A stretch of 64,000 bases of DNA from Flavobacteriales bacterium. Its GTDB lineage: Bacteria; Bacteroidota; Bacteroidia; Flavobacteriales_E; Vicingaceae. The translations under genes and the position numbers were made by a program. Positions 2,368-43,761 of this stretch are shown in pieces. The DNA is taken from positions 1-64,000 of the forward strand of contig JAJCYO010000055.1 of the NCBI GenBank assembly GCA_029262875.1. The letters run 5' to 3'. The first letter of the stretch is position 1, and the number at the start of each line of letters is the position of its first letter. Below the pieces are notes generated by a model, which was given only the letters and a program-made list of their open reading frames with translations, was not told the origin of the DNA and did not search any database.

Positions 2368-4467
2368 ATGAAAAATATAGCCTTATTAATTGGGTGTTTC
2401 TTAATAACGACACTAAACAGTTATAGCCAAAATAATGCACCAGTAGCTGTAAATGATACTATTTTTATAGCATATAACGATTCTACTCCTATCCAACAAA
2501 CATCTAACGGAACACCAACACTCCCATTTATTGATGATGATTCTGATCCAGATGGAAATTCAATTTATATAGATTCCGCTTTTTATAGTGGGTTAGGAAA
2601 TTTTGATGATACATTGATCACAATAAGCCCTACATTTTTCTTATGGAAATTAGGCTACAAACCACCTATAAATTATATCGGAATTGATAGTATAATGTAT
2701 ATTGTAAAAGATGACGGTATTCCCGTTATGTACGATACCGCCACCATTTACCTTTTTGTAAAACATCAAGAATTTCAACAATTGGATTTAAATAATATTA
2801 ATGCTCGTTTAGGGCTAAATCAACTATTTCATAATCCTGACAACTCTATTTCAGCCTTTGAAGTACCTAAGGGAACTAACCAGCACACCATGTTTGCTGC
2901 TAATTTATGGATAGCTGGAAAAAATCAAGATTCCGTTTATTTAGATGCTGTAACATTTGGTTCAAATAACCCATCAACTCTTACTCAGTTTATATCACGT
3001 AGTGGACCTATTATGGACTCCATTTATTACAAGCAATATGATTATAAATGGGATAGGTTATGGAAAATAACCAACCTCGAAATTATTTTTCATCAAAACA
3101 ATTGGATGAACGTTGGCTATCAACCCATAGAAGTAATTGCCAATTGGCCTGCTCATGGGGACAGTAGTAAAGGACAAGCTTTTTACTTAGCCCCATTTAT
3201 AGATAACAATAATGATGGTATTTACAATCCTTTAGATGGTGATTATCCAAAAATAAAAGGGCAACAAGCTATTTATTTTATTTATCACGATGTCAATTTT
3301 AGCTCTGGTTACTCAGGTGGCCCTGTACTTAATAGCGAAACGCACTATATGGCTTATGCTTACAATTGTCCTTCCGATTCTGCCATTAACAACACTATTT
3401 TTTTAGATTATACTATATACAATCGTTCTAATTTAACGTACGATAGCACTTATATTGGTATGTGGACAGATTTTGATATTGGCAGTTTTTCTGATGACTT
3501 TGTAGGCTGTGATGTAGCGAGAAGTACTTTTTATGGTTACAATGCTGATAATTTTGACGAAGATGCAAATGGAACACTCGGTTATCAAGCCTATCCTCCA
3601 GCACAAGGCGTAACTTTTTTGCAAGGAGCAAAACAAGATGATGATGGAATAGATAATAGTTATGGGATTGCACCAAATGAAACCATTAATGGTTTTGGTT
3701 TTGGAGATGGAACTCCTGATAATGAACATTGGGGCATGGAAGGATTTATGACTTACAGTGGCCCTGCACAACATATCGGTGATGGAGATCCGATATCAAA
3801 TATAGACTATCATAATTATTTACATGGAAAATGGAGAGATGGAAGTCAAATGGTTTATGGTGCAAATGGACACTTCTCAAGCGGTGGAACCATCCCTACA
3901 AAATATTTGTATCCAGGCGTTTCAGACCCTCTTTTTTATGGGACGGGTGGAGTAGCTGCAACCCCAACAAATTGGTCCGAGATGAATTCTTTAAGTCCAG
4001 CTGGTGATAGACGAGGGTTAGGCTCAACGGGTCCTTTTACTTTTGAGTCTGACAGCAGTATTTCCATAACATTAGCCTTTGTTTTTGGTAGAAATTATCA
4101 AACTACAGGTTCCCAAGCAGGTGTTGTAGTGATGCAAGAAAGGGTTGATTCTATTAGAAGTTATTATGCTACTGATTTTGTTTCTGTTTGTGGTGGCGCT
4201 TTAAGTGTTTCCGAAAATGAAAATAATCCTGAATCCACATTAACTGTTTATCCTAATCCATTTAATAATGAGTTAACTATTAATTATGAATCGGAAAATA
4301 ATGCCACAACACTAACTATTTACAATTTAATTGGTAAACAAATTATGAGTCAACACATTACTCAAAAAACAACTGTTCTCAATTTATCGTCACAACCAAA
4401 TGGGATTTATTTTGTTACCGTTACTGATGGCGTTAATAGAGTAAGTAAGAAAATTATTAAGCAATAG
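2368..4467 (+). CDS. Secreted T9SS protein, paralogue of the preceding gene with an additional N-terminal cadherin/Ig-like region
   Basis: Signal peptide; N-terminal APVAVNDTIFI...DDDSDPDGNSIYID; core and C-terminus align with the 535..2355 product. Confidence 0.85.
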   Translation: MKNIALLIGCFLITTLNSYSQNNAPVAVNDTIFIAYNDSTPIQQTSNGTPTLPFIDDDSDPDGNSIYIDSAFYSGLGNFDDTLITISPTFFLWKLGYKPPINYIGIDSIMYIVKDDGIPVMYDTATIYLFVKHQEFQQLDLNNINARLGLNQLFHNPDNSISAFEVPKGTNQHTMFAANLWIAGKNQDSVYLDAVTFGSNNPSTLTQFISRSGPIMDSIYYKQYDYKWDRLWKITNLEIIFHQNNWMNVGYQPIEVIANWPAHGDSSKGQAFYLAPFIDNNNDGIYNPLDGDYPKIKGQQAIYFIYHDVNFSSGYSGGPVLNSETHYMAYAYNCPSDSAINNTIFLDYTIYNRSNLTYDSTYIGMWTDFDIGSFSDDFVGCDVARSTFYGYNADNFDEDANGTLGYQAYPPAQGVTFLQGAKQDDDGIDNSYGIAPNETINGFGFGDGTPDNEHWGMEGFMTYSGPAQHIGDGDPISNIDYHNYLHGKWRDGSQMVYGANGHFSSGGTIPTKYLYPGVSDPLFYGTGGVAATPTNWSEMNSLSPAGDRRGLGSTGPFTFESDSSISITLAFVFGRNYQTTGSQAGVVVMQERVDSIRSYYATDFVSVCGGALSVSENENNPESTLTVYPNPFNNELTINYESENNATTLTIYNLIGKQIMSQHITQKTTVLNLSSQPNGIYFVTVTDGVNRVSKKIIKQ

Positions 4468-7400
4468 CTTTTTTAGCGAATACCCTCATCTTCAATTTTT
4501 CCGCCAGTAAGAATAAAACTGGTACAACGATTAATGTTAAGAATGTTGCCACAAATAAGCCATAAATAATAGTCCACGCCAATGGCCCCCAGAAGATAAC
4601 ATTATCTCCGCCAAAATAAATATGAGGATTAAACTCACTAAATAATGTGAAAAAGTTAATGTTTAACCCTGTTGCTAATGGAAGTAAGCCTAAAATTGTG
4701 GTTATTGCAGTCAACAGTACTGGTCGCAAACGTGCTTTTCCTGAAACTACAATTGTTTCAACCAACGAATCTTTGTCAATCATTTCCTTCTTTCCTAAGC
4801 CTAACTTGATTTTTTTTCTATTAATTAACAGCTGTGTGTAATCGAGTAATACCACCCCATTATTTACTACAATCCCAGCTAAGGAAATTATCCCCATCAT
4901 TGTCATCATTATAACGAAGGGAGATCCTGTAATAATTAACCCACCAAACACTCCGATTAAACTCAAGAATACAGCCAACATAATAATCGCTGGTTTAGAG
5001 ATAGAGTTGAATTGAAAGATTAGGATTAAAAAGATTAAACTAAGGCCTGTTCCAAATGCTCCCATTAAAAAAGCCATTTGTTTATTTTGTTCTTCAATTT
5101 GTCCTGTATAATCAATATTTACTCCATTCGGCTTTTCCGTAAAATTTTCCATTTCTTTTTGAACTTCTGCAACAATTGCTCCCGCATCAGTAAATCCAGG
5201 ACTTAAAGCAGAATAAACCGTAACCACTCGTTTTAAACTTTTATGCTTTATTGCACTAAACCCAGAACTGTTTTTTTGCATTGTAACAGCAGAAATCGGC
5301 ACTTCCTTAATCTGTCCATTTGAAGGGTCTCTAAATGTAATTTTTTGATCAAATAATGCGCTTGTATTGTATTTGTTTTCTTCGTTAAAACGCATATATA
5401 TGTCATAATCCTCTCCATCTTCTTTATAGATTCCTGCTTTTGCTCCAAAAATAGAATTACGTAATTGTTGTCCTACTTGCCCCGCATTTACACCCAATTC
5501 TCCAGCTTTTTTTCTATCCACTTTAACACTCATTCCTGGTTTAGACTTATTTACATCAATCTTCAATTCATCAATTCCTTGAATGTTTTTTGTATTGATA
5601 AAATCTTTCATTTTTTCTGCAGTAGCTATAAGTTCTCCATAGTCTTTCCCTTCTAACTCAATGTTTATAGGATAGCCAGCAGGAGGTCCTGCAGCATCTT
5701 TCTCAACAGAAATGGCAACACCCGGATAAATATCTTTCAGAGCTTCTTGCACCAATTTCTGAAGGTCTTTACTGTCTTCCCCCCTTCTAAACTTATACTC
5801 TCTCATTGAAGCAGTAACCTTTCCTCTATGTGGCATATCCGCTGTCGACCCTCCATCCGTTTGGGGGTTTCCAGCTCCCGCCCCAACCTGAGATACAGCA
5901 CTTTCTACCAAGAAATTATGATCCCCATCCATGTAAGCTGGATTGTTTAAAACGGTGTAAACACGTTGTTCTATTTCTTTTGTAATCGCATTCGTCTTTT
6001 CAATGTCCGTTCCTTGCGGATACTCTATGTAAACTATAATTTGGTTAGGCGTATTGTCTGGAAAGAATTCAATTTTAGTTCGTTGTGTTGCAACAGAACC
6101 ACCAAACCCCATAAAAGTAAAAATCAAAAATAACCCAGTTCCAAAACTTACCAAGTATGGTCTCCATCCTTTTAAAGCTCCACGTAACAGTTTTTCATAT
6201 GTTCTTTCCCAACTTGTCAATATTCTTGTCTGAAAAAAGTTTACCATTCTACGTAAACCTAATCGGTAAATCCATAGCATCACAGCCGTAACTACCATTA
6301 TACTTCCTAAAGAACGATATGTACTCCCCGAAAATAAAATTAACAACCCGATTCCTCCAACTATAGATGTGAGAATAATGATTCGTTTTAACGGCATCTC
6401 CTTATCTTCAGTATTCATAAATTGAGATACTAAAACCGAATTAAAAAATATTGCTACAATCAAGGATGAACTTAGCACCACCGAAAGTGTTACGGGGAAA
6501 TATATCATAAACTCTCCCATTACTCCCGGCCACATCCCCAAAGGAATAAATGCAGCTACTGTTGTTGCCGTAGAAATAATAATAGGAAACGCAATTTCAG
6601 ATATTCCTTGTTTGGCCGCTTTTATTCTGCTCAACCCTTCTTCGTCCATTAAACGATACACGTTCTCTACTACCACAATTCCATTATCAACTAACATCCC
6701 GAGTCCCATGATGAGCCCGAATAGGATCATCGTATTCATGGTGTAGCCCAACATTTCCAACACCATTAAAGACATTAACATTGACATCGGAATAGCAAAC
6801 CCAACAAATAGTGCATTTTTAAACCCTAAAAAGAACATCAAAACCCCTACCACTAAGATTATTCCGAAAATAATGTTATTCACCAAATCATCCACCTGTC
6901 CTATCGTCTTAGAAGATTGGTCATTGGTAGTTGTTATCTTTAAATCCGTAGGGAATACCTCCTTTTTTGCAGTAGCAACAATAACTTCAATTTTTTCAGC
7001 TGCAGCAACCATGTTTTTTCCAGAACGCTTTTTTACATCTAACATCACTGAACTATGACCAAATTCTCGAGCATAAGTCGTTCTTTCTTTCGCTTTAAAT
7101 GTAACTGTAGCAACATCTCTTAAATAAATAGAGTTCCCATTTTCAGCTTTCACAACAAAACTTTCCAGCTCTTTTGGATCTTCAATTTCTCCCAAAATAC
7201 TTATGGTACGTCTTTGTCCACTTGCAATTAAATTGCCTGCAGAAATATTGACATTTCCTCCATTTATTGCATTCCTAATATCATCAAAACTAACTTTAGA
7301 TGCCATCATCTTGTAAATGTCAACCGCTATCTCTACTTCTTTTTCCTGAACCCCACGAATATCCACTTGCTTTATTTCTGACAAATCTTCAATTTCATCT

Positions 7401-30088: not shown

Positions 30089-30865
30089 CTAATATTTGAG
30101 GACCTTATAGCTTCTTTTTCCGGCAGTAGAGTTAATTATTAAGAAATATGTTCCTTGGTTTAGTCCCAAAGTCGATATTATTAGTTGATTAGGTGAAATA
30201 ACGTCAAAAGAAACATTTTGTCGTTTTCCAACAATGTCAATTAATCTTATTTCTTTTGTTTGAAATGCCTTAGCGTCCATTTCAATAAACAATTTATCCA
30301 TTACTGGGTTCGGATATATTTTGATTGATTGTCTTTCTACTACAGCTACTCCTGTTGGAAGCATTCCAACAACCTCAAACGAATCTACTGCTGTGCAGCC
30401 ATTACTATCAGATACTGTTACGACATAAGTAATCGGTACTGTATCAGCTATAACACAATCTCCTAAGCTGCAATTAATTAAATTAGGTGTCCACGAAACT
30501 GAATAAGGAGGTATTCCGCCAACAATAGTTGGTGAAATTATTGGTAAACTATCCCCAAAAAATACATTGGTATCTGATATCGTTGAAACAATCAACTGAG
30601 GAGGTTCAGCTACAAAATACCCTAAAACACTAAGCAATTGCCCCGTGCTATCCCAAACCGTTACTTCATGAATTCCTGTACAAAGTCCAGTTGCAACCTG
30701 TGTGGTTTGTCCTGTTGGTGACCATAAAAAAGTATAGGGAGGTAGCCCTCCAAAAGGTTGTGTTTGAACAGTCCCGTCACAAGCTCCAAAACATGAAACA
30801 TCAACCGCCTGTGAAAAGGAGGAAAGTGGGAAAAAAAGAATTAATATATAAATATATGTCTTCAC
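30089..30865 (-). CDS. Secreted protein with SprB-like repeats and T9SS sorting domain
   Basis: VDVSCFGACDGTVQTQPFGGLPPYTFLWSPTGQTTQ...; C-terminal IKIYPNPVMDKLFIEM...GTYFLIINSTAGKRSYKVLKY. Confidence 0.82.
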   Translation of the reverse strand: MKTYIYILILFFPLSSFSQAVDVSCFGACDGTVQTQPFGGLPPYTFLWSPTGQTTQVATGLCTGIHEVTVWDSTGQLLSVLGYFVAEPPQLIVSTISDTNVFFGDSLPIISPTIVGGIPPYSVSWTPNLINCSLGDCVIADTVPITYVVTVSDSNGCTAVDSFEVVGMLPTGVAVVERQSIKIYPNPVMDKLFIEMDAKAFQTKEIRLIDIVGKRQNVSFDVISPNQLIISTLGLNQGTYFLIINSTAGKRSYKVLKY

Positions 30866-30881
30866 ATCAGTATAATGTATG

Positions 30882-30889
30882 CAAAGGTA
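30882..30889 (-). promoter_or_regulatory. Candidate -7 box (TACCTTTG)
   Basis: Plus strand CAAAGGTA 17 nt upstream of the minus-strand start at 30865. Confidence 0.45.
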
Positions 30890-30947
30890 TTAACCCTAAC
30901 ATCAAAGAAAAGACAAGAAAAAGACAAACCAACGGAAATTGGCTGTC

Positions 30948-32165
30948 CTAATGTTTGAAAATTTTATACGTTTTTTGTTGTGAAGTAGCTGTCACTTTAA
31001 CGAAATAAATCCCATTTTTCATGCCTGACAAGTTTAACTCAAAAGAATTAATGTTTTCATAGTGTTTGGTCAATACCCTTTTCCCGACCACGTCATAAAC
31101 CAAGACTTCAACTGTTTTTTCTTGTTTAGACGATGAGAATTTAAACCTGTTTTGTGTCACAAATCCCTTCCAGTTATTTTCTGAAATAGTTTCTTCAATA
31201 CCCACATTTACCGGAACGTAAGCCTTTATTGCTATTGGTAAATGATCTGACATAATGTATAAAGCATCAATTACATTGGCTGGCGCTGAAGTATTTGTTG
31301 GCGTAGCATTAATGGATTTATTAAAATGATTACCGTCATTCCCTACTGCTGTATAGGAATTAGGAACATAGGTTAATTTGTTTGATCCTGTAAGTAAATC
31401 ATTGGTAAAAAATATAAAGTCAAACCGGTCGTCCATCCCGCCAAAAGCACCACCATCTCCTAAACTTCCAGATCTCGTACTTTGTGTATGAACATTAGCA
31501 TAAAATGAATTGTTATTCCAATTACCGGGAGTAGAAATAGGGTCTAATAAAGACACATTCCCACCATTTAAAATGGTATTGTGTGCCGCTTCAGCACTTG
31601 TATATAAATTAAAATCTCCTCCTAATATTACATTTTCAATATTTGTTCTGGAGTCCATATAGTTTTTAAGTGTAACTGCTTCTTGGTTTCGTTGTTGTTC
31701 ATTAGCCGCACCAGTACTTGCTTTTAAGTGAGCCATATAACAATAAATAAACACGGTGTCTGATGCAGCAGTCATTCCTGGAGCGTTATAATACAGAACA
31801 TATTCGCTTATGTTTCTAAGTGTTGTCGCTATTTCAAACTGGCTATACAATACCAATTTATCCGAATTGTAATACAACATGTTATCCGTATCAGGACCAT
31901 TAAAATAAGTTGCCTTTTGGTAATAAGTAACACCATCAACATTTAACGCATCGTTTAAAATGGTTGTAGCTCCTGTAGAGGATGTCAGTTCCGTGATCAT
32001 AAAAATATCCGGTTGAACATATTGAATAATCGGTTTTAGAGTGTCTGCCTTAGTTGAATTAGAAAGCGGGTAGTTTAAAATATTATAGGATAAAACCGTT
32101 AATGTGTCTTGTGATTTAACAAGGGTTCCTAAGAGGATGAAAAGTGTAAATAGAATGTGTTTCAT
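30948..32165 (-). CDS. Secreted endonuclease/exonuclease/phosphatase (EEP) family protein with T9SS sorting domain
   Basis: VLSYNILNYPLS; IFMITELTS; NVILGGDFNLYTS; MSDHLPIAIKAYV; C-terminal VEVLVYDVVGKRVLTK...NGIYFVKVTATSQQKTYKIFKH. Confidence 0.87.
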   Translation of the reverse strand: MKHILFTLFILLGTLVKSQDTLTVLSYNILNYPLSNSTKADTLKPIIQYVQPDIFMITELTSSTGATTILNDALNVDGVTYYQKATYFNGPDTDNMLYYNSDKLVLYSQFEIATTLRNISEYVLYYNAPGMTAASDTVFIYCYMAHLKASTGAANEQQRNQEAVTLKNYMDSRTNIENVILGGDFNLYTSAEAAHNTILNGGNVSLLDPISTPGNWNNNSFYANVHTQSTRSGSLGDGGAFGGMDDRFDFIFFTNDLLTGSNKLTYVPNSYTAVGNDGNHFNKSINATPTNTSAPANVIDALYIMSDHLPIAIKAYVPVNVGIEETISENNWKGFVTQNRFKFSSSKQEKTVEVLVYDVVGKRVLTKHYENINSFELNLSGMKNGIYFVKVTATSQQKTYKIFKH

Positions 32166-32172
32166 GAGTAGA

Positions 32173-33249
32173 TTATTTATTTTTCTGTTCCTTAATTAAA
32201 AACAAATATACAGGAAAATGATCGCTGTACCCTCCAGTATAGGCTCCTCCAGCATATGTGCGATGTGGATAACCTTTATATTTTCCAGTAGATTGTATTA
32301 AATAGGCCTTGCTAAAGATTTTTGCCTTGTAATATTTGTAAGACGAATAATCCTCTCCCATTAATGACGGTGTTACTAAGATTTGGTCAAACAAATTCCA
32401 GGCATCTCTATAGGCCAATGTTCCTATTCCTTTCTTAAAATAACCTTCCCATGGATTAAACAGGTCATCGGCTTTAAGCTCATCTTTTTTGCCTACTCCT
32501 TTCAAGTGTTTTTTTATACTTGAATCTGTTGGATCGTCATTTAAATCTCCCATGTACAATATTTTAGCCTTTGGATCAATTGCTTGTAAAGAATCAATAA
32601 TTATTTTTCCTAAATCAGCAGCAGATGCTCTTTTTGGCCGACTACGTTTTTCTCCACCACTTCGAGAAGGCCAATGTGTAACAATTACATGAATTTTTTC
32701 GCCATTTAATAAACCACTTACCAACAATTGGTCTCTTGTATAAAAGGTAGTGTCAATGCTTCTTAACGAAATACTCTTACTCGATGTTACTTCGAAATAT
32801 TTAGGATTATATAATAACCCAACGTCAATTCCTCTTTTGTCTGGAGAGTCATAATGCACAATTTTATATTCTCTACTTTTCAGTTTTTCAGTTTTAACCA
32901 AATCCTCTAAAACAGATCTATTTTCGATTTCAGAAACCCCTAAAATAGCTACTCCATCAGGCGTTACTTCAACACCTAAATCAGCAATGACTTTAGACAT
33001 GTTTTCTAATTTTTCCATATATCTTTCTGAAGTCCACCCCTTTTTTCCTTTAGGAGTAAAATCATCTTGCAAAATTTTATTCGTATCGGAATCAATAAGC
33101 GTGTCAAAGAGGTTTTCTAAATTGTAAAACCCCACTCCTGCAACCTGGTACTCCTTTTTATCCTCTTGAGAAAATATAGGGTTAACAGTAAAGAAAAAGA
33201 GTATTAAGTATAAAAGTAAGCCTTGTTTCATAAGTGTATTTTTTTGCAA
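32173..33249 (-). CDS. Secreted endonuclease/exonuclease/phosphatase family protein
   Basis: Signal peptide; VGFYNLENLFDTLIDSDTNK; VAILGVSEIENR; VTHWPSRSGGEKRSRPKR; ILYMGDLNDDPTDSS; GGYSDHFPVYLFL. Confidence 0.9.
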   Translation of the reverse strand: MQKNTLMKQGLLLYLILFFFTVNPIFSQEDKKEYQVAGVGFYNLENLFDTLIDSDTNKILQDDFTPKGKKGWTSERYMEKLENMSKVIADLGVEVTPDGVAILGVSEIENRSVLEDLVKTEKLKSREYKIVHYDSPDKRGIDVGLLYNPKYFEVTSSKSISLRSIDTTFYTRDQLLVSGLLNGEKIHVIVTHWPSRSGGEKRSRPKRASAADLGKIIIDSLQAIDPKAKILYMGDLNDDPTDSSIKKHLKGVGKKDELKADDLFNPWEGYFKKGIGTLAYRDAWNLFDQILVTPSLMGEDYSSYKYYKAKIFSKAYLIQSTGKYKGYPHRTYAGGAYTGGYSDHFPVYLFLIKEQKNK

Positions 33250-33476
33250 AGTAAGTAAATAAAATTCTATGTGTTTTTTATTAGGGATGCCTAAAGTTCT
33301 TTTTAATATTAATTTTTTATTAACAATTTAATGGTTTTAAGGGTTTTATGAATTATTAAGTTTAATTTTGAATCGTTATTAAATTATTTGCATTAATAAC
33401 AAAAAGTGATTATCCTATGAAGCAACCAAAGTAAGACTTCAAACCGCTTTATTCTTATACTTTTTTTTTAATACTA

Positions 33477-36014
33477 ATGAGAATAATAAACATAATAGCT
33501 GTTGCATTAATTTTTATGACTGTTGCTGTAAAAGCTCAAACAGATTCTTCTGCAACAAACAATGGTGATAGTACACTAAATACAAAAATTGTTCCACCAT
33601 TTACAACATCCTTAGATGCCCTTGAAGATGATTCAGAAGCCCCTCAAGATGTTTCTGGTTTATTACAATCTTCAAAAGATGTATTTTCAAATATTGCTGG
33701 ATTTAATTTTGGTGCGGCACGTTACCGTGTTAGGGGTTATGATTCTGAAAACTTTACGGTAAGTATGAATGGCTTAACTTTAAACAATCCGGAAGGAGGT
33801 AGAGCAATATGGGCTTTTTGGGGTGGGTTAAATGACATTACCCGTTACCAAGAATCTAAATCTGGAATTAGTGCGTCATCATACAATTTTGGAGGAATAG
33901 GTGGTTACTCAAATATTAATGCAAGGGCAACAGCTGTAAGAAAAGGAACAAAAATATCTTATGCTTATTCTAATAGATCTTACAACCACAGGGCCATGGT
34001 TACTCACTCTACCGGAATGATGGAAAATGGACTGGCCATAGCAATATCTGCCTCCAAAAGATCATCTGGAGAGGGTTATGTTGAAGGTACTTATTACAAT
34101 GGTGCAAGCTACTTCTTGTCCATTGAAAAGAAATTAAACGACAAACATAGCTTAGGTATTGTTGGATATGGTGCTCCAACAGTTCAGGGAAAAAGAAGTA
34201 TTTCAACTCAAGAAACCTATGACCTAACAGGAAATAATTATTACAACTCCTATTGGGGTTATCAAAATGGTGAAAAAAGAAACTCTAGAATTCGAACCAA
34301 CCATAAACCAAGAATAATGTTAAATCATTATTTTAAAATGAATGACAAAACAACCCTCAATTCATCACTATACTATTCGTTTGGTAAGGGTGGTAATACC
34401 CGTTTAAATTGGTACAGTGCTGCAGACCCGCGTCCTGATTATTACAGAAACTTACCAAGTTTTTATGGTAATCCTGGTGACGAAGCGATGTTTGATGAGT
34501 TAACTGCTTTGTGGCAGGGAAATGATCCAACAACTACACAATTAGATTTTGACCAAATGTATTTTGCCAATAGCAAAAACCTTTTTACACAAACCAATGC
34601 AGATGGTATTACGGGGAACAATGTAACAGGAAATAGAGCTAAATACATTATTGAAGAAGCCAGGAAAGATATTTCTCATTACGGTTTTAACACCGTAGTT
34701 AGTCATAAAAAAAGTGATAAAATGATGTTGACTGGTGGGTTGACAGTCAGTAAATATAAAAGTGAAAACTTTAAAGTAGTTAACGATTTACTTGGGGCTG
34801 ATTTTTGGGTTGATGTAGATCAATTTGCTGAAAGAGATTTTGCCGATGAATTAGTTGCTCAGAGTGATGTCAATAATCCCAACCGAATTGTCAAAGAAGG
34901 TGATCGTTTTGGATACGACTATGACATAAACATTGACACATACAGTGGGTTTGGTCAAGTTGAAGGAACAACAACTAAAATAGATTGGTTTGCTGGATTT
35001 TCAGTAAAGAGTACCACTTTTTGGAGAACAGGGAATTATCAAAACGGACTATTTCCAGATAACTCTTTAGGGGATTCTGAAAAACAAAGTTTCTTTAACT
35101 ATGGTGTTAAAGCTGGAGGAATATACAAATTAACGGGAAGGCATTTGATTCGATTAAACGGAGCATATTTAACAAGAGCGCCTTTCTCAAGAACGGCATT
35201 TGTTTCACCAAGAACAAGAGACCAAATTGTTCCTGATTTAAAAAGTGAAAAAATTATGTCAGGAGACATCAGTTATATTGTTCGTTATCCAAAAATTAAA
35301 ACACGAGCAACTTTGTTTCACACCACCATTAAAGACAAAACTTGGAGCAGAAGTTTTTACCATGATGATTTAAACACATTTGTAAACTATATGATGACAG
35401 GTGTTGATCAAGTTTTTACAGGTGTTGAGTTTGGTGCGGAGGTTAACATTACATCAACCATTACATTGTCTGCTGCATACGCAACAGGTCAATTCTTATA
35501 TGACTCAAGACCAACAGCAACCATTATTCAAGATAACTCTACAGAGTTATTGGCAGAAAGCAAAACCATCTATTTTAAAAATTATAAAATTGGAGGAATT
35601 CCTCAAACTGCAGGATCGATTGGTATACAATATCGATCTCCTAAGTATTGGTTTACAGGAATTAATTTCAATTACTTTACTGATATCTATTTGGATGCTA
35701 ACCCTGATAGAAGAACAGAAGAGGCTGTTGCAAAATACATCTCTACTGATCCTCAAGTAGATGAAATCATTGACCAAACGAAATTAGATGATGACTACAC
35801 TCTTAATTTCTTTGTAGGTAAATCCTGGAGAATTAAAAATAAATACTATTTAAGACTTAACCTTAATGTAAATAACCTGTTGAATAACACAGATTTTAAA
35901 ACTGGTGGTTTTGAACAGTTGAGATATGATCAAAATGAAATAGGAAAGTTCCCTCCAAAAATTGGTTACATGTATGGAAGAACTTATTTTGCTATGGTTA
36001 GCTTTTCGTTTTAA
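33477..36014 (+). CDS. TonB-dependent receptor
   Basis: Signal peptide; plug DDSEAPQDVSGLLQSSKDVFSNIAGFNFGAARYRVRGYDSENFTVSMNGLTLNNPEGGRA; C-terminal aromatic beta strand FAMVSFSF. Confidence 0.9.
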   Translation: MRIINIIAVALIFMTVAVKAQTDSSATNNGDSTLNTKIVPPFTTSLDALEDDSEAPQDVSGLLQSSKDVFSNIAGFNFGAARYRVRGYDSENFTVSMNGLTLNNPEGGRAIWAFWGGLNDITRYQESKSGISASSYNFGGIGGYSNINARATAVRKGTKISYAYSNRSYNHRAMVTHSTGMMENGLAIAISASKRSSGEGYVEGTYYNGASYFLSIEKKLNDKHSLGIVGYGAPTVQGKRSISTQETYDLTGNNYYNSYWGYQNGEKRNSRIRTNHKPRIMLNHYFKMNDKTTLNSSLYYSFGKGGNTRLNWYSAADPRPDYYRNLPSFYGNPGDEAMFDELTALWQGNDPTTTQLDFDQMYFANSKNLFTQTNADGITGNNVTGNRAKYIIEEARKDISHYGFNTVVSHKKSDKMMLTGGLTVSKYKSENFKVVNDLLGADFWVDVDQFAERDFADELVAQSDVNNPNRIVKEGDRFGYDYDINIDTYSGFGQVEGTTTKIDWFAGFSVKSTTFWRTGNYQNGLFPDNSLGDSEKQSFFNYGVKAGGIYKLTGRHLIRLNGAYLTRAPFSRTAFVSPRTRDQIVPDLKSEKIMSGDISYIVRYPKIKTRATLFHTTIKDKTWSRSFYHDDLNTFVNYMMTGVDQVFTGVEFGAEVNITSTITLSAAYATGQFLYDSRPTATIIQDNSTELLAESKTIYFKNYKIGGIPQTAGSIGIQYRSPKYWFTGINFNYFTDIYLDANPDRRTEEAVAKYISTDPQVDEIIDQTKLDDDYTLNFFVGKSWRIKNKYYLRLNLNVNNLLNNTDFKTGGFEQLRYDQNEIGKFPPKIGYMYGRTYFAMVSFSF

Positions 36015-36060
36015 TCGTGTGCACAGAGAGATTATTTAAGATAAATAAAAATTAAACAAA

Positions 36061-37320
36061 ATGATACGAACAAAAACCCTTTTAGGAATCACTTTATTAG
36101 CAACCACTTTACTTTTTACAAGTTGCGAAAAAGAATTTGACTCGCCTCCGATAAAAGAAATCCCTGTTGGTTCGGTTCTTACCGTTGCTGATGTTAAAGC
36201 TATGCTGGTTCCTGGACAAGAAACAGAATTCACAACAGATTTATCCGTTTATGGTGTTGTGACAATAGATGAATCTACTGGAAACCTTTATAAAGAAACA
36301 TATATTCAAGATGCTACGGGTGGATTGTATTTAAGGTTTACGGCTTCAAGTGGTGTTTATATTGGAGATTCTGTTAGAATCAATTTAAATGGAGGTTCCA
36401 TTTTAGAATATACCGATATGCTGCAGATTAATAATTTAGACCCTGATAACAATGTTGTGAAAATTTCGACACAAAAATTCAAACAACCAGAAGTAACTGC
36501 GATGGCAAGCCTTATTGATACAGCTAACAGCTCCTATTATCAAGGGAGGTTAATTCAGTTAAATGATGTAGAGTTTGATTGTGCTGAAACGGGGAAAACA
36601 TTTGCTGATGCGCTTACACAATCTTCTGAAGATAGAATCTTAAATGACACATCTGGTAATTTCGTTATTGTGCGTTCAAGTGGTTTTGCCAATTTTGCGA
36701 GCACTACCTTACCAACAGGAAAAGGTAACTTGATTGCTGTTGTTTCAGAATACCAAGGTACCATGCAACTTATAATTAGGAATCCTGCCGAATTAACATT
36801 GTATGGAACACGATTTAAAATATGTCCTGATATTTACAAATATTTCAGTGATGAAAACATCACTTCAGGAGGGTGGACAACCCAACTGGTTACTGGCTCT
36901 ATTGACTGGACTACGAGCGACCAAGGTCAATCTGGCAACTTCTATGGAGTAATGAGTAACTACATTCCACCAAATGTCGCTGCCGAAACATGGTTAATCT
37001 CCCCATCTTTAAACTTTGGCGCTTCTACTGCTCCTATTTTCGATTTCCGAAATGCATATAACTTTTCTGGGGCTGCGTTAGAAGTATTGGTGTCAACCAA
37101 TTATGATGGAACAAGCACTCCATCAACCGCGACTTGGACTCCTCTTTCTGTAAAATTATCTTCTGGTGGGTTCGGATGGGTAAATGCAAGTGATCTTCCT
37201 AATGGTCCAGTAGATTTAACGCCATATTTAGTTAACAACGTATACATTGCTTTTAAGTATACCGGAACCAATTCAAACGGTAGTACTTGGGAAGTAGACG
37301 ATATAGAAATTACATATTAA
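36061..37320 (+). CDS. DUF5689-like lipoprotein with C-terminal choice-of-anchor-J-like domain
   Basis: Lipobox LLFTSCEKEFDSPP; VYGVVTIDESTGNLYKETYIQDATGGLYLRF; TWLISPSLNFGASTAPIFDFRNAYNFSGAALEVLVSTNYDG...WEVDDIEITY. Confidence 0.8.
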   Translation: MIRTKTLLGITLLATTLLFTSCEKEFDSPPIKEIPVGSVLTVADVKAMLVPGQETEFTTDLSVYGVVTIDESTGNLYKETYIQDATGGLYLRFTASSGVYIGDSVRINLNGGSILEYTDMLQINNLDPDNNVVKISTQKFKQPEVTAMASLIDTANSSYYQGRLIQLNDVEFDCAETGKTFADALTQSSEDRILNDTSGNFVIVRSSGFANFASTTLPTGKGNLIAVVSEYQGTMQLIIRNPAELTLYGTRFKICPDIYKYFSDENITSGGWTTQLVTGSIDWTTSDQGQSGNFYGVMSNYIPPNVAAETWLISPSLNFGASTAPIFDFRNAYNFSGAALEVLVSTNYDGTSTPSTATWTPLSVKLSSGGFGWVNASDLPNGPVDLTPYLVNNVYIAFKYTGTNSNGSTWEVDDIEITY

Positions 37321-37351
37321 AATAATAATTAACGATTAAAACCTCTTACTT

Positions 37352-38812
37352 ATGAAAAAATTTTACGCTTTATTTTTAGGGTTAATTCTAATTAGCTCTG
37401 TTGCAAATAGCCAAACAATATTTGCAATCCAAACGCCTGGTGCCACAGCAGATACTTCTGCATTTTTTGGTCAATCAGTTAACACAAATGGAATAGTTAC
37501 TGCTGTTACAAGCAATGGATATTATGTTCAAGACGGAGCTGGAGCCTGGAATGGTATTTTCGTTTTTGATTCAGGGAACACTCCAAGTAGAGGAGATGAT
37601 GTTTCTTTTACAGCTGATGTTGATGAGTTCTTTAACTTAACTGAACTTAAAAATGTAACTGCTTTTGTTACTAACTCAACAGGAAATGCCTTACCGGCTG
37701 CAACAGCCCTATCTACATTAGCTGTTAATGATGAACAATATGAAGGTGTTTTGGTTTCAGTATCTACAGCTCAAGCAATGACAACTCCTAACGGTTTTGG
37801 AGAATGGGATGTTAATGATGGAAGCGGTATTGTAACAATTGATGATGCAATGTTTCCTTTCACTCCTGTTGTTTCTAATAATTATGACATTACTGGAGTG
37901 GTTGATTACGCATTTGGTATATACAAGATTGAGCCTAGAGATGCTGCCGATATTGTTGGCGCTACTGGTGGACCAAATTTTGTTTCAATATTTGACATTC
38001 AAAATACAACGGCACCAAGTGGTGATTCTCCAGAGTTAGGAAACATTGTGATGACGAAAGGTGTTGTGACAGGTGTTGTAACTTTTGGTGCTCCTGGAAC
38101 ATTCTTTATTCAAGATGGAAATGGAGCCTGGAATGGGTTGTACGTTTTTGAAAGCGGAACGACTGTAGTTAGAGGAGATAGTGTTGAGGTAACTGGAACC
38201 GTTGCTGAATTCAATAACACAACAGAATTAGTTTCTGTTACCAATGTTACTGTATTAAACTCTGGGAACACACTACCAACCCCATCTGTTTTAACAACAG
38301 GAAATGCTAATACAGAAGATTGGGAAGGTGTCTTAATTCGAGTTATGAATGCCCCTTGTACAAGTAATTCTGTTGGATTTGGAATGTGGGAATTAAATGA
38401 TGCCTCTGGAGTTATTTTGGCTGATGATGACATTTTTCCATATGCATTATCTGCTGTAGTAAGCACGAGTTACAACGTTACTGGAATTGGACATTACTCT
38501 TTTAGTGCGTTTAAAATCTTACCAAGAGATGCCAATGACATCACGCTTGCAACTGGTGTTAATGAATTGAAGAATACGACAGTATCAGTATATCCTAACC
38601 CTGTTAAAAACAGCATTAATTTTGATTTAGATTTTACTGGGTTTAACGTTAAAATTATTGATGTTACAGGAAAAACAGTGAAATCAAGCACTGCAGTAAA
38701 TAGTAAATTAACTATTTCTACATCAAACTTTAGCAATGGAATATACTTCTATTCTATTTCTGATAACAACGAAAATGTAATTGCAACAAATAAGTTTATT
38801 GTTGCAAAATAG
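37352..38812 (+). CDS. Secreted protein with two tandem OB-like repeats and T9SS sorting domain
   Basis: Two copies of YYVQDGAGAWNGIFVFDSGNTPSRGDDVSFTADVDEFFNLTELK / FFIQDGNGAWNGLYVFESGTTVVRGDSVEVTGTVAEFNNTTELV; C-terminal VSVYPNPVKNSINFDL...FIVAK. Confidence 0.82.
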   Translation: MKKFYALFLGLILISSVANSQTIFAIQTPGATADTSAFFGQSVNTNGIVTAVTSNGYYVQDGAGAWNGIFVFDSGNTPSRGDDVSFTADVDEFFNLTELKNVTAFVTNSTGNALPAATALSTLAVNDEQYEGVLVSVSTAQAMTTPNGFGEWDVNDGSGIVTIDDAMFPFTPVVSNNYDITGVVDYAFGIYKIEPRDAADIVGATGGPNFVSIFDIQNTTAPSGDSPELGNIVMTKGVVTGVVTFGAPGTFFIQDGNGAWNGLYVFESGTTVVRGDSVEVTGTVAEFNNTTELVSVTNVTVLNSGNTLPTPSVLTTGNANTEDWEGVLIRVMNAPCTSNSVGFGMWELNDASGVILADDDIFPYALSAVVSTSYNVTGIGHYSFSAFKILPRDANDITLATGVNELKNTTVSVYPNPVKNSINFDLDFTGFNVKIIDVTGKTVKSSTAVNSKLTISTSNFSNGIYFYSISDNNENVIATNKFIVAK

Positions 38813-41491: not shown

Positions 41492-41718
41492 CAGCAACTG
41501 GCATCTCTGCAATCACCATTTTCTTGAATAGGAGGACAGGGAACTGTTCCATAAGAACAGTAGACACAACAATCGTTATTAATCGGTTTTAATACTTTTT
41601 TACAGTTTTCACATTCATAAAAATACTGGCAAGCATCTGTAGGCATTGTTTCTTCTTTTTTATGTCCACATTCCAGACAAGTAATTGTTGACCGTAGCTT
41701 TACACCTGAATTATTCAT
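41488..41718 (-). CDS. GDCCVxC-domain-like small cysteine-rich protein
   Basis: 76 aa; TCLECGHKKEETMPTDACQYFYECENCKKVLKPINNDCCVYCSYGTVPCPPIQ. Confidence 0.85.
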   Translation of the reverse strand: MNNSGVKLRSTITCLECGHKKEETMPTDACQYFYECENCKKVLKPINNDCCVYCSYGTVPCPPIQENGDCRDASCC

Positions 41719-42574
41719 AAAAACTATCTTTAATACTTACTGACTCTACTTTAACTGATTCCTTTAAGGTTAATATTGAGGTTAACTCTTTGATAGAAAT
41801 ATCACCATCATCAAAAGAGACCAAAGCAATTATGTTGGGCTGTTTATCTGTATCATAATAAGTACAAACCTCAACAACTCCGTTTTGTTCATTTAAAATA
41901 ACGTGAACCTTATCTATACATTCCCCACAGCCTTTTGGGTCTATAATCAACTCTATTACACTATAGAGGTTTTCTTCTTTTTCTAATGCAACATATCCAG
42001 TAGTGTTAATGGCTTTTTTTATGTCTTTAATAGATGTTTTAGACTCATCAAATTGCACAATTGTGTTTCCTTGATCATAAGACGTTGTTACATTAACAAT
42101 TCCTGGTAATTCATTTACGGCATGATTCACATGGTCTTGACATGCATCACAAGTCATTCCCTCAACTTTTACATTTATTTTTTGAACGTTTGAATTCTCT
42201 ATAATTATGACCTCTTTTTTGTTGTCAGGAAAGAAGGTTCCTGAATAATAAGGAAACGCAATGGAAGCGACAGCAAACAAGGTCATTCCTATTAGAAAGC
42301 CCTTGGTTTGGTACCATTTAGGTTTTTCTACATCACAACCGCAATCATCCACTGCTTTAGTTTTCATATGATCGTACCATGCATAACTGATAGCAATTAT
42401 AGCTAATCCAATTAAATACGGTCGGAAAGATTCCATCCAAGATAAATTTCCTGCCGCTCCACCAGCTCCAGCTATTGCTGCAATTACTGGAGGGATACAG
42501 CAAGATGATGCTGCAACAGCAGCAATAACTCCTGTTACAGCAGCTCCTTTCGCGTTTTTCTTTTCTGTTTCCAC
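41711..42574 (-). CDS. Mercuric transport protein MerTP-like, with extra C-terminal domain
   Basis: MerT-like ASSCCIPPVIAAIAGAGGAAG; HMA motif VKVEGMTCDACQDHVNHAV; C-terminal region with CGECIDKV. Confidence 0.85.
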   Translation of the reverse strand: METEKKNAKGAAVTGVIAAVAASSCCIPPVIAAIAGAGGAAGNLSWMESFRPYLIGLAIIAISYAWYDHMKTKAVDDCGCDVEKPKWYQTKGFLIGMTLFAVASIAFPYYSGTFFPDNKKEVIIIENSNVQKINVKVEGMTCDACQDHVNHAVNELPGIVNVTTSYDQGNTIVQFDESKTSIKDIKKAINTTGYVALEKEENLYSVIELIIDPKGCGECIDKVHVILNEQNGVVEVCTYYDTDKQPNIIALVSFDDGDISIKELTSILTLKESVKVESVSIKDSFYE

Positions 42575-42657: not shown

Positions 42658-43761
42658 TTAAACTAACTTATATAGCTTTCCTGGAAGCATTTTTACGACC
42701 CCATTAAATTCCATTTCTAATAGCATTGCAGTGGTCTTACTCATTGGTATTTTTGCCTGAAGTGAAAGTTCATCAATTCCAATTTTTTCTTGTTTTGACA
42801 GAATCGCTACAATCGTTTTTTCTTCTGAGGAAAGTTCTACAAACAGTTGAGTTTGATTTTGTATCACTTTTTTTTCTGCTTCCCATCCCATGATGTATTC
42901 TATGTCTTTTACCGATTGTATTAGGGCCGCTTTATTGATTTTTATTAAATTATTACAGCCTTCTGACTGGCTATCATTTAATCTTCCTGGTAATGCAAAA
43001 ACATCTCTGTTGTAATCATTGGCAATATAGGCGGTAATCAATGATCCTCCTTTTTTACTTGATTCTATCACAATCGTTAAATCTGAAAGACCCGCAACAA
43101 TTCTATTTCTTTTCGGGAAATTCTCACGATCAGGGTTTGTTCGACTTTTGTAATCAGTTAATAAGCCCCCATTTTCTATCATCTGTTTTGCAACTCCAGT
43201 ATGCTGTGAAGGGTATAATTTATCCAGTCCATGCGCTAAGACCCCAACAGTTGGCAAGTTATTTTTAAGTGCTGCTTTATGTGAACAAATATCTATTCCA
43301 TAAGCCAATCCACTAATAATTAACGGATGGTGTGGTTTTAATTCTTTTACAATTTTATCACAAAAACTTTTACCATATTCCGTTGCTTTTCGAGTTCCAA
43401 CAATGCTAATAACTTTAGGATTATTAAATTCAGCATTTCCTTTTGAATAAAGAAGAATGGGGCCATCTTCACAATGAAGTAACCTTTTTGGGTAGTTATC
43501 ATTTAAATAAAATAGTGGTGTAATGTTGTTCTTTTTAATAAATATTAATTCTTCTTCTGCAATAGCCAACGCCTCTGTTTTATGTTGAATAATTTTCCTT
43601 GCATTAATCCCTCCTATCCCAGGAATTTTTTCTAAAACACCTTTTTTCTCCCTGAAAACTTGTTCTGAACTTCCACAATAAGCAATAAGTTTTTTAGCTG
43701 TAATGTCCCCAATGTTAGGGATGGAAGTAATTGCAATATGGTAAAGTAATTGTTCATTCAT
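42658..43761 (-). CDS. dprA: DNA-processing protein DprA
   Basis: ISIVGTRKATEYGKSFCDKIVKEL; IISGLAYGIDICSHKAAL; FPKRNRIVAGLSDLTIVIESSKKGGSLITA. Confidence 0.95.
   Translation of the reverse strand: MNEQLLYHIAITSIPNIGDITAKKLIAYCGSSEQVFREKKGVLEKIPGIGGINARKIIQHKTEALAIAEEELIFIKKNNITPLFYLNDNYPKRLLHCEDGPILLYSKGNAEFNNPKVISIVGTRKATEYGKSFCDKIVKELKPHHPLIISGLAYGIDICSHKAALKNNLPTVGVLAHGLDKLYPSQHTGVAKQMIENGGLLTDYKSRTNPDRENFPKRNRIVAGLSDLTIVIESSKKGGSLITAYIANDYNRDVFALPGRLNDSQSEGCNNLIKINKAALIQSVKDIEYIMGWEAEKKVIQNQTQLFVELSSEEKTIVAILSKQEKIGIDELSLQAKIPMSKTTAMLLEMEFNGVVKMLPGKLYKLV

Follow-up and report, generated by a model that had tools for sequence, protein, structure and literature searches.

Genes at the locus

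The window analysed here is a stretch of 64,000 nucleotides from a Flavobacteriales bacterium (contig JAJCYO010000055.1, positions 1 to 64,000), and the subject is a group of divergent genes around a TonB-dependent receptor (TBDT) that is likely to import DNA (Table 1). Six open reading frames (ORFs) had been placed and described here by an earlier reading of the letters alone (the sequence-only reading), and matches to Pfam and NCBIfam models confirmed all six. Leftward from position 33249 run the genes for EEP3, a nuclease of the endonuclease/exonuclease/phosphatase (EEP) type, for EEP_T9, a second EEP enzyme with a sorting domain of the type IX secretion system (T9SS), and, beyond these, for a SprB-repeat protein. 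Rightward from 33477 follow the TBDT, a DUF5689 lipoprotein and OB2, a protein with two oligonucleotide/oligosaccharide-binding (OB) type repeats. The gaps between the latter three genes are only 46 and 31 bases, which suggests a single operon. The conserved core consists of the PF19580 nuclease EEP3 diverging from the TBDT, followed by the DUF5689 lipoprotein. Two features, a structured leader RNA and a dprA gene, had been missed by the sequence-only reading.

Table 1. Features of the locus and further copies of its leader RNA
Feature	Position	Strand	Evidence or remark
SprB-repeat protein with T9SS tail	30089-30865	-	ORF as placed by the sequence-only reading; neighbour gene
EEP_T9: Exo_endo_phos and type A T9SS sorting domain, signal peptide	30948-32165	-	PF03372 39 bits, PF18962 38 bits
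EEP3: Exo_endo_phos_3 nuclease, signal peptide, no T9SS tail; core	32173-33249	-	PF19580 414 bits
TAATTTTG, Bacteroidota-type -7 promoter box (TAnnTTTG)	33363-33370	+	kept among relatives
Structured leader RNA of the TBDT operon	33398-33457	+	covariance model match 75.8 bits
TBDT; core	33477-36014	+	weak Plug PF07715 match
DUF5689 and choice-of-anchor J lipoprotein; core	36061-37320	+	PF18942 155 bits, NF038128 60 bits
OB2: T9SS-exported, two ExeM/NucH N-terminal (OB-type) repeats; accessory	37352-38812	+	NF033681 79 bits in two stretches, PF18962 51 bits
DprA; separate unit	42658-43761	-	TIGR00732 222.6 bits, cut-off 191
Leader RNA copy, same genome (L192)	5248-5303	-
Leader RNA copy, same genome (L192)	3049-3108	-
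Leader RNA copy, same genome (L193)	957-1010	+
Leader RNA copy, same genome (L194)	965-1020	+

Orthology with a transformation locus of Riemerella anatipestifer

In the duck pathogen R. anatipestifer, a transposon screen and markerless deletions have demonstrated that RA0C_RS04915, a TonB-receptor-like protein, and RS04920, a DUF5689 protein, are each essential for natural transformation, which was lost completely, to below detection, when the RS04915 receptor was deleted (PMC8459023). A need for the HHH protein, ComEC, DprA and RecA has likewise been established there by others, as has an effect of TonB, since the tonBA and tonBB mutants transformed poorly (PMC8383284). To compare this locus with that of the window, a published comEC primer (PMC8383284) served to retrieve the scaffold of strain CCUG25054, on which both comEC primers have a match. 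The best match of our receptor profile in R. anatipestifer lay on the same scaffold and scored 583 bits, whereas the next TBDT reached 239 bits over the whole protein. The order on the scaffold is recA, dinB, sdhB, sdhA, sdhC, comEC, two genes, EEP3 (-), TBDT (+) and DUF5689 (+), the dinB and sdh genes being named from blast matches and by eye, and some 4 kb separate the trio from comEC. With recA taken as RS04870 and comEC as RS04895, gene order would assign RS04910 to EEP3, RS04915 to the TBDT and RS04920 to the DUF5689 protein.

The window TBDT is 35% identical to the Riemerella receptor over 836 aligned positions (462 bits) and was the single match of the receptor profile in its own genome. 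In a maximum-likelihood tree it grouped with RS04915 and 42 other cassette receptors in a single clade (100/100); five other TBDTs, among them a second one of Riemerella, fell outside this clade. EEP3 is 41% identical to the Riemerella gene, and the DUF5689 protein 24% identical to its counterpart over the full length (E 5e-24). The Riemerella transformation lipoprotein (L119 14386-15795) scored 591 bits for NF052645 and thus belongs to the M949_1556 family. M949_1556 has been reported as a gene for antigenicity and virulence in R. anatipestifer (Zou 2015, cited in PMC12566107); the literatures on this gene and on transformation seem to be unconnected.

The genome of the window also encodes DprA, ComEC, NamZ/DUF1343 and a homolog of the HHH protein (30% identity to that of Riemerella, E 1e-32). 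The DprA of the window is the only one of the genome, and the other three are encoded outside the window. A check of receptor presence against that of ComEC and DprA was uninformative, both being near universal in the order. No repeated uptake sequence was found within the 64-kb window.

Conservation of the cassette in Bacteroidota

Two samples of genomes were used, one of 46 genomes from the order, all of one family, and one of 396 genomes from the class, in which the receptor profile was applied at 1e-30 and 40 loci were opened. In the order, 21 of the 46 genomes had a full-length receptor and one more had a weakly similar one. At the 20 same-family loci, one or two DUF5689 proteins and then an OB protein followed 3' of the receptor wherever the contig continued, the only exception being the weakly similar receptor (L044), where the contig ends. 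EEP3 and EEP_T9 diverged from the receptor in most of these loci. The outer flanks differed between genera while the core order stayed, so the grouping is neither chance nor mere general synteny. EEP3 was present in all 21 receptor carriers and in 7 of the 25 non-carriers (p=2e-7, kinship ignored).

In the class, 173 of the 396 genomes matched the receptor profile, many of them only through other TBDTs. A DUF5689 gene lay directly 3' of the full-length receptor in 39/39 loci, and EEP3 was immediately upstream in 32/39, divergent in 30 of them; 34 loci had it within the 20 kb that were retrieved. Genes that do not co-occur in relatives would have refuted the sequence-only reading, and they do co-occur. 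EEP_T9 was found at 14/20 family loci and only 3/39 class loci; like the OB protein, it is an accessory seen in close relatives. The SprB-like gene occurred at the corresponding place in no relative among the 20 same-family loci and was rejected as a component of the cassette, being a neighbour only.

At one family locus (L038 3315-4384, G044:C56), EEP3 was disrupted by in-frame stops and the receptor operon was intact. The dprA gene lies 3.8 kb beyond the cassette in the window, and a dprA gene is also near the cassette in two genomes of the same genus (G017 and G024). The gene at 41711-42574, between the cassette and dprA, encodes a protein that, as read by eye, combines a MerT-like membrane part with domains resembling heavy-metal-binding ones.

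The EEP3 nuclease

EEP3 scored 414 bits for PF19580 against a gathering cut-off of 27, placing it in this family. The residues N43, E107, E109, H192, D235, N237, D288, D343 and H344 were 100% conserved in 35 sequences, that of R. anatipestifer included. By eye, nearly all relatives have a signal peptide and no T9SS tail, with one lipoprotein-like exception (L112). EEP3 is therefore predicted to be a periplasmic protein rather than a surface protein, because it has the signal peptide without the sorting tail. Searches of the PDB with the EEP3 sequence and profile gave no relative, and structure prediction from the single sequence was of low confidence, with a predicted local distance difference test (pLDDT) score of 35 for EEP3 and 34 for the DUF5689 protein.

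The ComEC proteins of these bacteria bear on what EEP3 might do. A metallo-beta-lactamase nuclease domain or its metal motif was found in 0/29 ComEC proteins of Bacteroidia, Riemerella and the genome of the window included, whereas the same library did detect the domain in E. coli YcaI, used as a control. Nearly half of all ComEC proteins are without the nuclease domain, and how the strand is degraded there has been stated as open (PMC8579336). How double-stranded DNA becomes single-stranded was likewise left unexplained by Huang and colleagues. Since none of the 29 ComEC proteins has the nuclease domain and EEP3 is a near-constant neighbour of the receptor, EEP3 is a natural candidate for the missing strand-processing nuclease, and we propose it as such.

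The lipoprotein and the exported accessory proteins

In the DUF5689 lipoprotein, the lipobox Cys22 and Lys24 were invariant in 16 alignment rows. The protein matched DUF5689 and DUF5017 but no SusD model. The only hit in the PDB was a weak partial match to 8jiy (E 0.004); for the receptor profile, the PDB matches covered just short parts of designed SAKe proteins and were set aside. The DUF5689 profile aligned to the profile of the ExeM-type OB repeat with 93% probability and E 3e-7 (hhalign). By inference only, this kinship supports nucleic-acid binding by the DUF5689 protein.

EEP_T9 kept N28, E59, H146, D184, N186, D307 and H308 invariant in seven rows and is predicted to be a surface EEP-fold nuclease or phosphodiesterase. 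The OB2 profile matched the N-terminus of the solved EEP-domain nucleases 9sf8 and 9sf9. The 79-bit match of OB2 to NF033681 covers the N-terminal domain only and lies below the 300-bit cut-off, so OB2 is not assigned to ExeM/NucH; EEP_T9 and EEP3 of the window were unmatched by this model. The two-repeat form of OB2 described by the sequence-only reading holds for the window and L041, and in other relatives (L027, L031, L034, L037, L038, L040, L042 and L043) the first half is an unrelated domain.

A structured leader RNA before the receptor

Alignment of relatives detected a conserved element in the gap upstream of the receptor gene. It would fold into an outer stem (about 33401-33408/33445-33450) and an inner stem (about 33418-33422/33437-33441) with the fixed single strands CCUA and AAACC (AACC). 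Two-sided changes occurred in 9 of 13 pairs, with a covariation score of 0.298 against 0.172 for shuffled alignments of the 24 sequences. With 62 sequences, in an alignment that had been fitted to the structure, the score was 0.409 against 0.217 shuffled and at most 0.153 for slid versions. A covariance model, trained on the copies at the receptor and not on the extra copies elsewhere in those genomes, found the element in 33 of the 396 class genomes, with several copies per genome and some in tandem. In the order of the window, 20 of the 21 genomes with the receptor had it, against none of the other 25.

A TAnnTTTG box was found within 80 nt upstream in 49/58 copies, and most copies lay within 60 nt of a start codon; with a promoter box upstream and a start codon close downstream, the element is very probably an mRNA leader, and its covarying helices are those of a putative structured cis-regulatory RNA. 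It could also be a DNA operator for a regulator, given its short, mostly palindromic sequence and the position of most copies ahead of genes for exported proteins, possibly one regulon. We hold this to be quite unlikely, since the element, lying between the box and the start codon, is probably transcribed, the inner hairpin varies highly in length while its pairing is preserved by two-sided changes, CCUA and AACC are fixed as single strands, and the copies are one-directional. Rfam 15 gave no match at the element in the window or in 20 further loci at the gathering score, and a low-threshold scan of 33200-33560 gave chance-level matches only; the RNA is apparently undescribed. It was not found at the Riemerella cassette or at most of the distant ones, and thus regulates, if it does, only a branch.

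Among 40 proteins encoded downstream of the RNA, 21 had Por_Secre_tail and 16 CHU_C T9SS signal matches. Other genes after copies of the RNA encode eight lamin-tail proteins, a phospholipase D (PLD)/NucT-like protein and a purple-acid-phosphatase-like protein. As most other copies precede varied T9SS proteins, a role of the RNA in DNA uptake alone became less likely, and its control may instead extend to surface proteins in general. Two copies precede deoC, the gene for deoxyribose-phosphate aldolase (L219 4349-4431 and L231 4310-4391), and the second gene after another copy (L219, around 10146) resembles a nucleoside phosphorylase by eye; a link to deoxynucleosides is possible. Tandem pairs stand before one large secreted-protein gene at L204 1003-1145 and L225 4326-4467, an arrangement known from some riboswitches. 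At eight loci (L206, L212, L215, L217, L218, L220, L221 and L224) the genes after the RNA encode a secreted T9SS protein, in most cases of the lamin-tail kind, and a TonB receptor with distant kinship to that of the cassette, and these pairs may be a second surface import system.

Interpretation of the locus

We consider it likely, though well short of certain, that the locus encodes a DNA importer of the outer membrane, of the type that serves natural transformation in R. anatipestifer. The sequence-only reading had instead seen an acquisition system resembling a polysaccharide utilization locus (PUL); against a PUL-like nutrient locus speak the lack of a SusD-like protein, the essential role of the Riemerella orthologs in transformation and the competence genes nearby (dprA, and comEC and recA in Riemerella). 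Its view that surface proteins bind and cut DNA which a TonB receptor imports had the right direction, apart from EEP3, predicted to be periplasmic. Two further checks that could have refuted it also went in its favour: the catalytic residues of both EEP enzymes are intact, and the receptor belongs to a clade of its own, apart from the five other TBDTs tested.

The importer may work as follows. DNA at the cell surface would be held by the DUF5689 lipoprotein and, in the lineage of the window, by the T9SS-exported OB-repeat protein as well, while the T9SS-exported EEP enzyme would trim it. The TBDT, powered via TonB, would thread the DNA through the outer membrane, and the HHH protein would bind it in the periplasm, where EEP3 would cut or remove the non-entering strand. 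ComEC would then send one strand inward to DprA and RecA, DprA loading RecA onto the incoming single-stranded DNA. The amount of importer would probably be set by the leader RNA on the receptor mRNA. The present analysis contributes to this scheme the orthology, the gene order, the intact active site and the covarying RNA; the passage of DNA through the receptor, the roles of EEP3 and of the T9SS accessories, the function of the RNA and the presumed transformability of the species are inferred.

Several observations weigh against this interpretation. The receptor is lacking in 25 of the 46 order genomes, some of them nearly complete; seven genomes of the order have EEP3 without the receptor, and in 7/39 class loci EEP3 does not adjoin it. 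The lipoprotein is only 24% identical to that of Riemerella, and its 156.7 bits for NF052645 fall below the 475-bit cut-off. The near universality of ComEC and DprA in the order makes their presence non-discriminating. As to the role of EEP3, ten genomes without the cassette likewise have a ComEC without the nuclease domain, and the gene was not among the 23 mutants found in the R. anatipestifer screen of 3000 transposon mutants. Finally, attempts to transform Flavobacterium johnsoniae did not succeed under the conditions used (PMC7965970), although its genus carries homologs (PMC8459023), so carriage of the locus is no proof of competence.

The failure with F. johnsoniae would also fit a locus that scavenges DNA for phosphorus, nitrogen or nucleosides, transformation being a by-product in some species. 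A receptor flanked by two nucleases and by a T9SS protein that carries ExeM-type OB repeats would suit such a function, and so would the company of the leader RNA elsewhere: deoC, the NucT-like PLD, the purple-acid-phosphatase-like protein and ExeM-like lamin-tail proteins followed by a TBDT. Nevertheless, R. anatipestifer depends on the receptor and lipoprotein pair for transformation, a process that needs strands to arrive intact (PMC8459023). The core nuclease is predicted to be periplasmic and the surface nuclease is not kept outside close relatives, and next to the cassette we saw no gene for a nucleoside transporter or a 5'-nucleotidase and no phosphate gene. Scavenging is therefore an unlikely explanation, albeit the most serious of the alternatives. 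TBDTs carry small ligands in most cases, and the receptor could import a metal complex, a phosphoester or a peptide, with an indirect transformation phenotype in Riemerella; iron and phosphate status do alter transformation of R. anatipestifer, and the effect of tonBB was ascribed to iron by the authors (PMC8383284). We regard this as very improbable, as deletion of the receptor caused a complete loss below detection and no mild decrease, the receptor stands apart from five other TBDTs in the tree, a nuclease is its near-constant neighbour, and the domain of the lipoprotein is related by profile to the OB domain of extracellular nucleases.

If the locus is a DNA importer, a wider and more doubtful proposal can be made, which we put forward tentatively: EEP3, the receptor and the DUF5689 protein may be an ancient, pilus-independent machine for DNA import and processing across Bacteroidota, in which EEP3 replaces the nuclease of ComEC, and in part of the phylum this machine may be controlled by a new class of leader RNA shared with genes for surface proteins, among them some nucleases, lamin-tail/TonB pairs and deoC. 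In most Gram-negative transformers, pili are believed to draw the DNA in. As far as checked, this kind of importer is known from one organism, and its conserved nuclease partner, class-wide spread and leader RNA have not been described; a literature search for phosphate-regulated or nutritional versions of the locus found nothing specific. Import of DNA by a TonB receptor across Bacteroidota would, if true, alter the picture of how genes move within the communities of soil, water and gut. EEP3 would provide a named, deletable candidate for removal of the second strand where ComEC has no nuclease domain, and the leader RNA offers a new putative regulatory element that can be tested.

Comparison with known systems

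Like PUL importers of the SusC/SusD type, the locus has the genes for a TBDT and a lipoprotein in the same operon and enzymes close by, but its lipoprotein is of the DUF5689 kind and not SusD-like, glycan enzymes are absent, and the receptor has no CarboxypepD_reg extension. With the secreted ExeM/NucH nucleases (NF033681; chains 9sf8 and 9sf9) it has in common the OB-type N-terminal domain, found in OB2, and an adjacent EEP-type enzyme; here, however, the OB and EEP domains are on separate T9SS-exported proteins, and no protein of the window reaches 300 bits. The role proposed for EEP3, handling of the non-entering strand outside the inner membrane, resembles that of EndA of Streptococcus and of the beta-lactamase-like domain of ComEC (PMC8579336, PMC12455585), whereas EEP3 belongs to the EEP family, a different fold family, and its role in transformation is only a proposal. 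The M949_1556 lipoproteins of NF052645 match the window lipoprotein over the full length with the same two domains. The closest likeness is to the RA0C_RS04915/RS04920 locus of Riemerella, which has the same gene order (EEP3 diverging from the TBDT and DUF5689), an orthologous receptor and competence genes nearby, these being comEC and recA in Riemerella and dprA in the window. The Riemerella receptor differs by an N-terminal CarboxypepD_reg domain, and the window by its leader RNA and its additional T9SS nuclease and OB-repeat protein.

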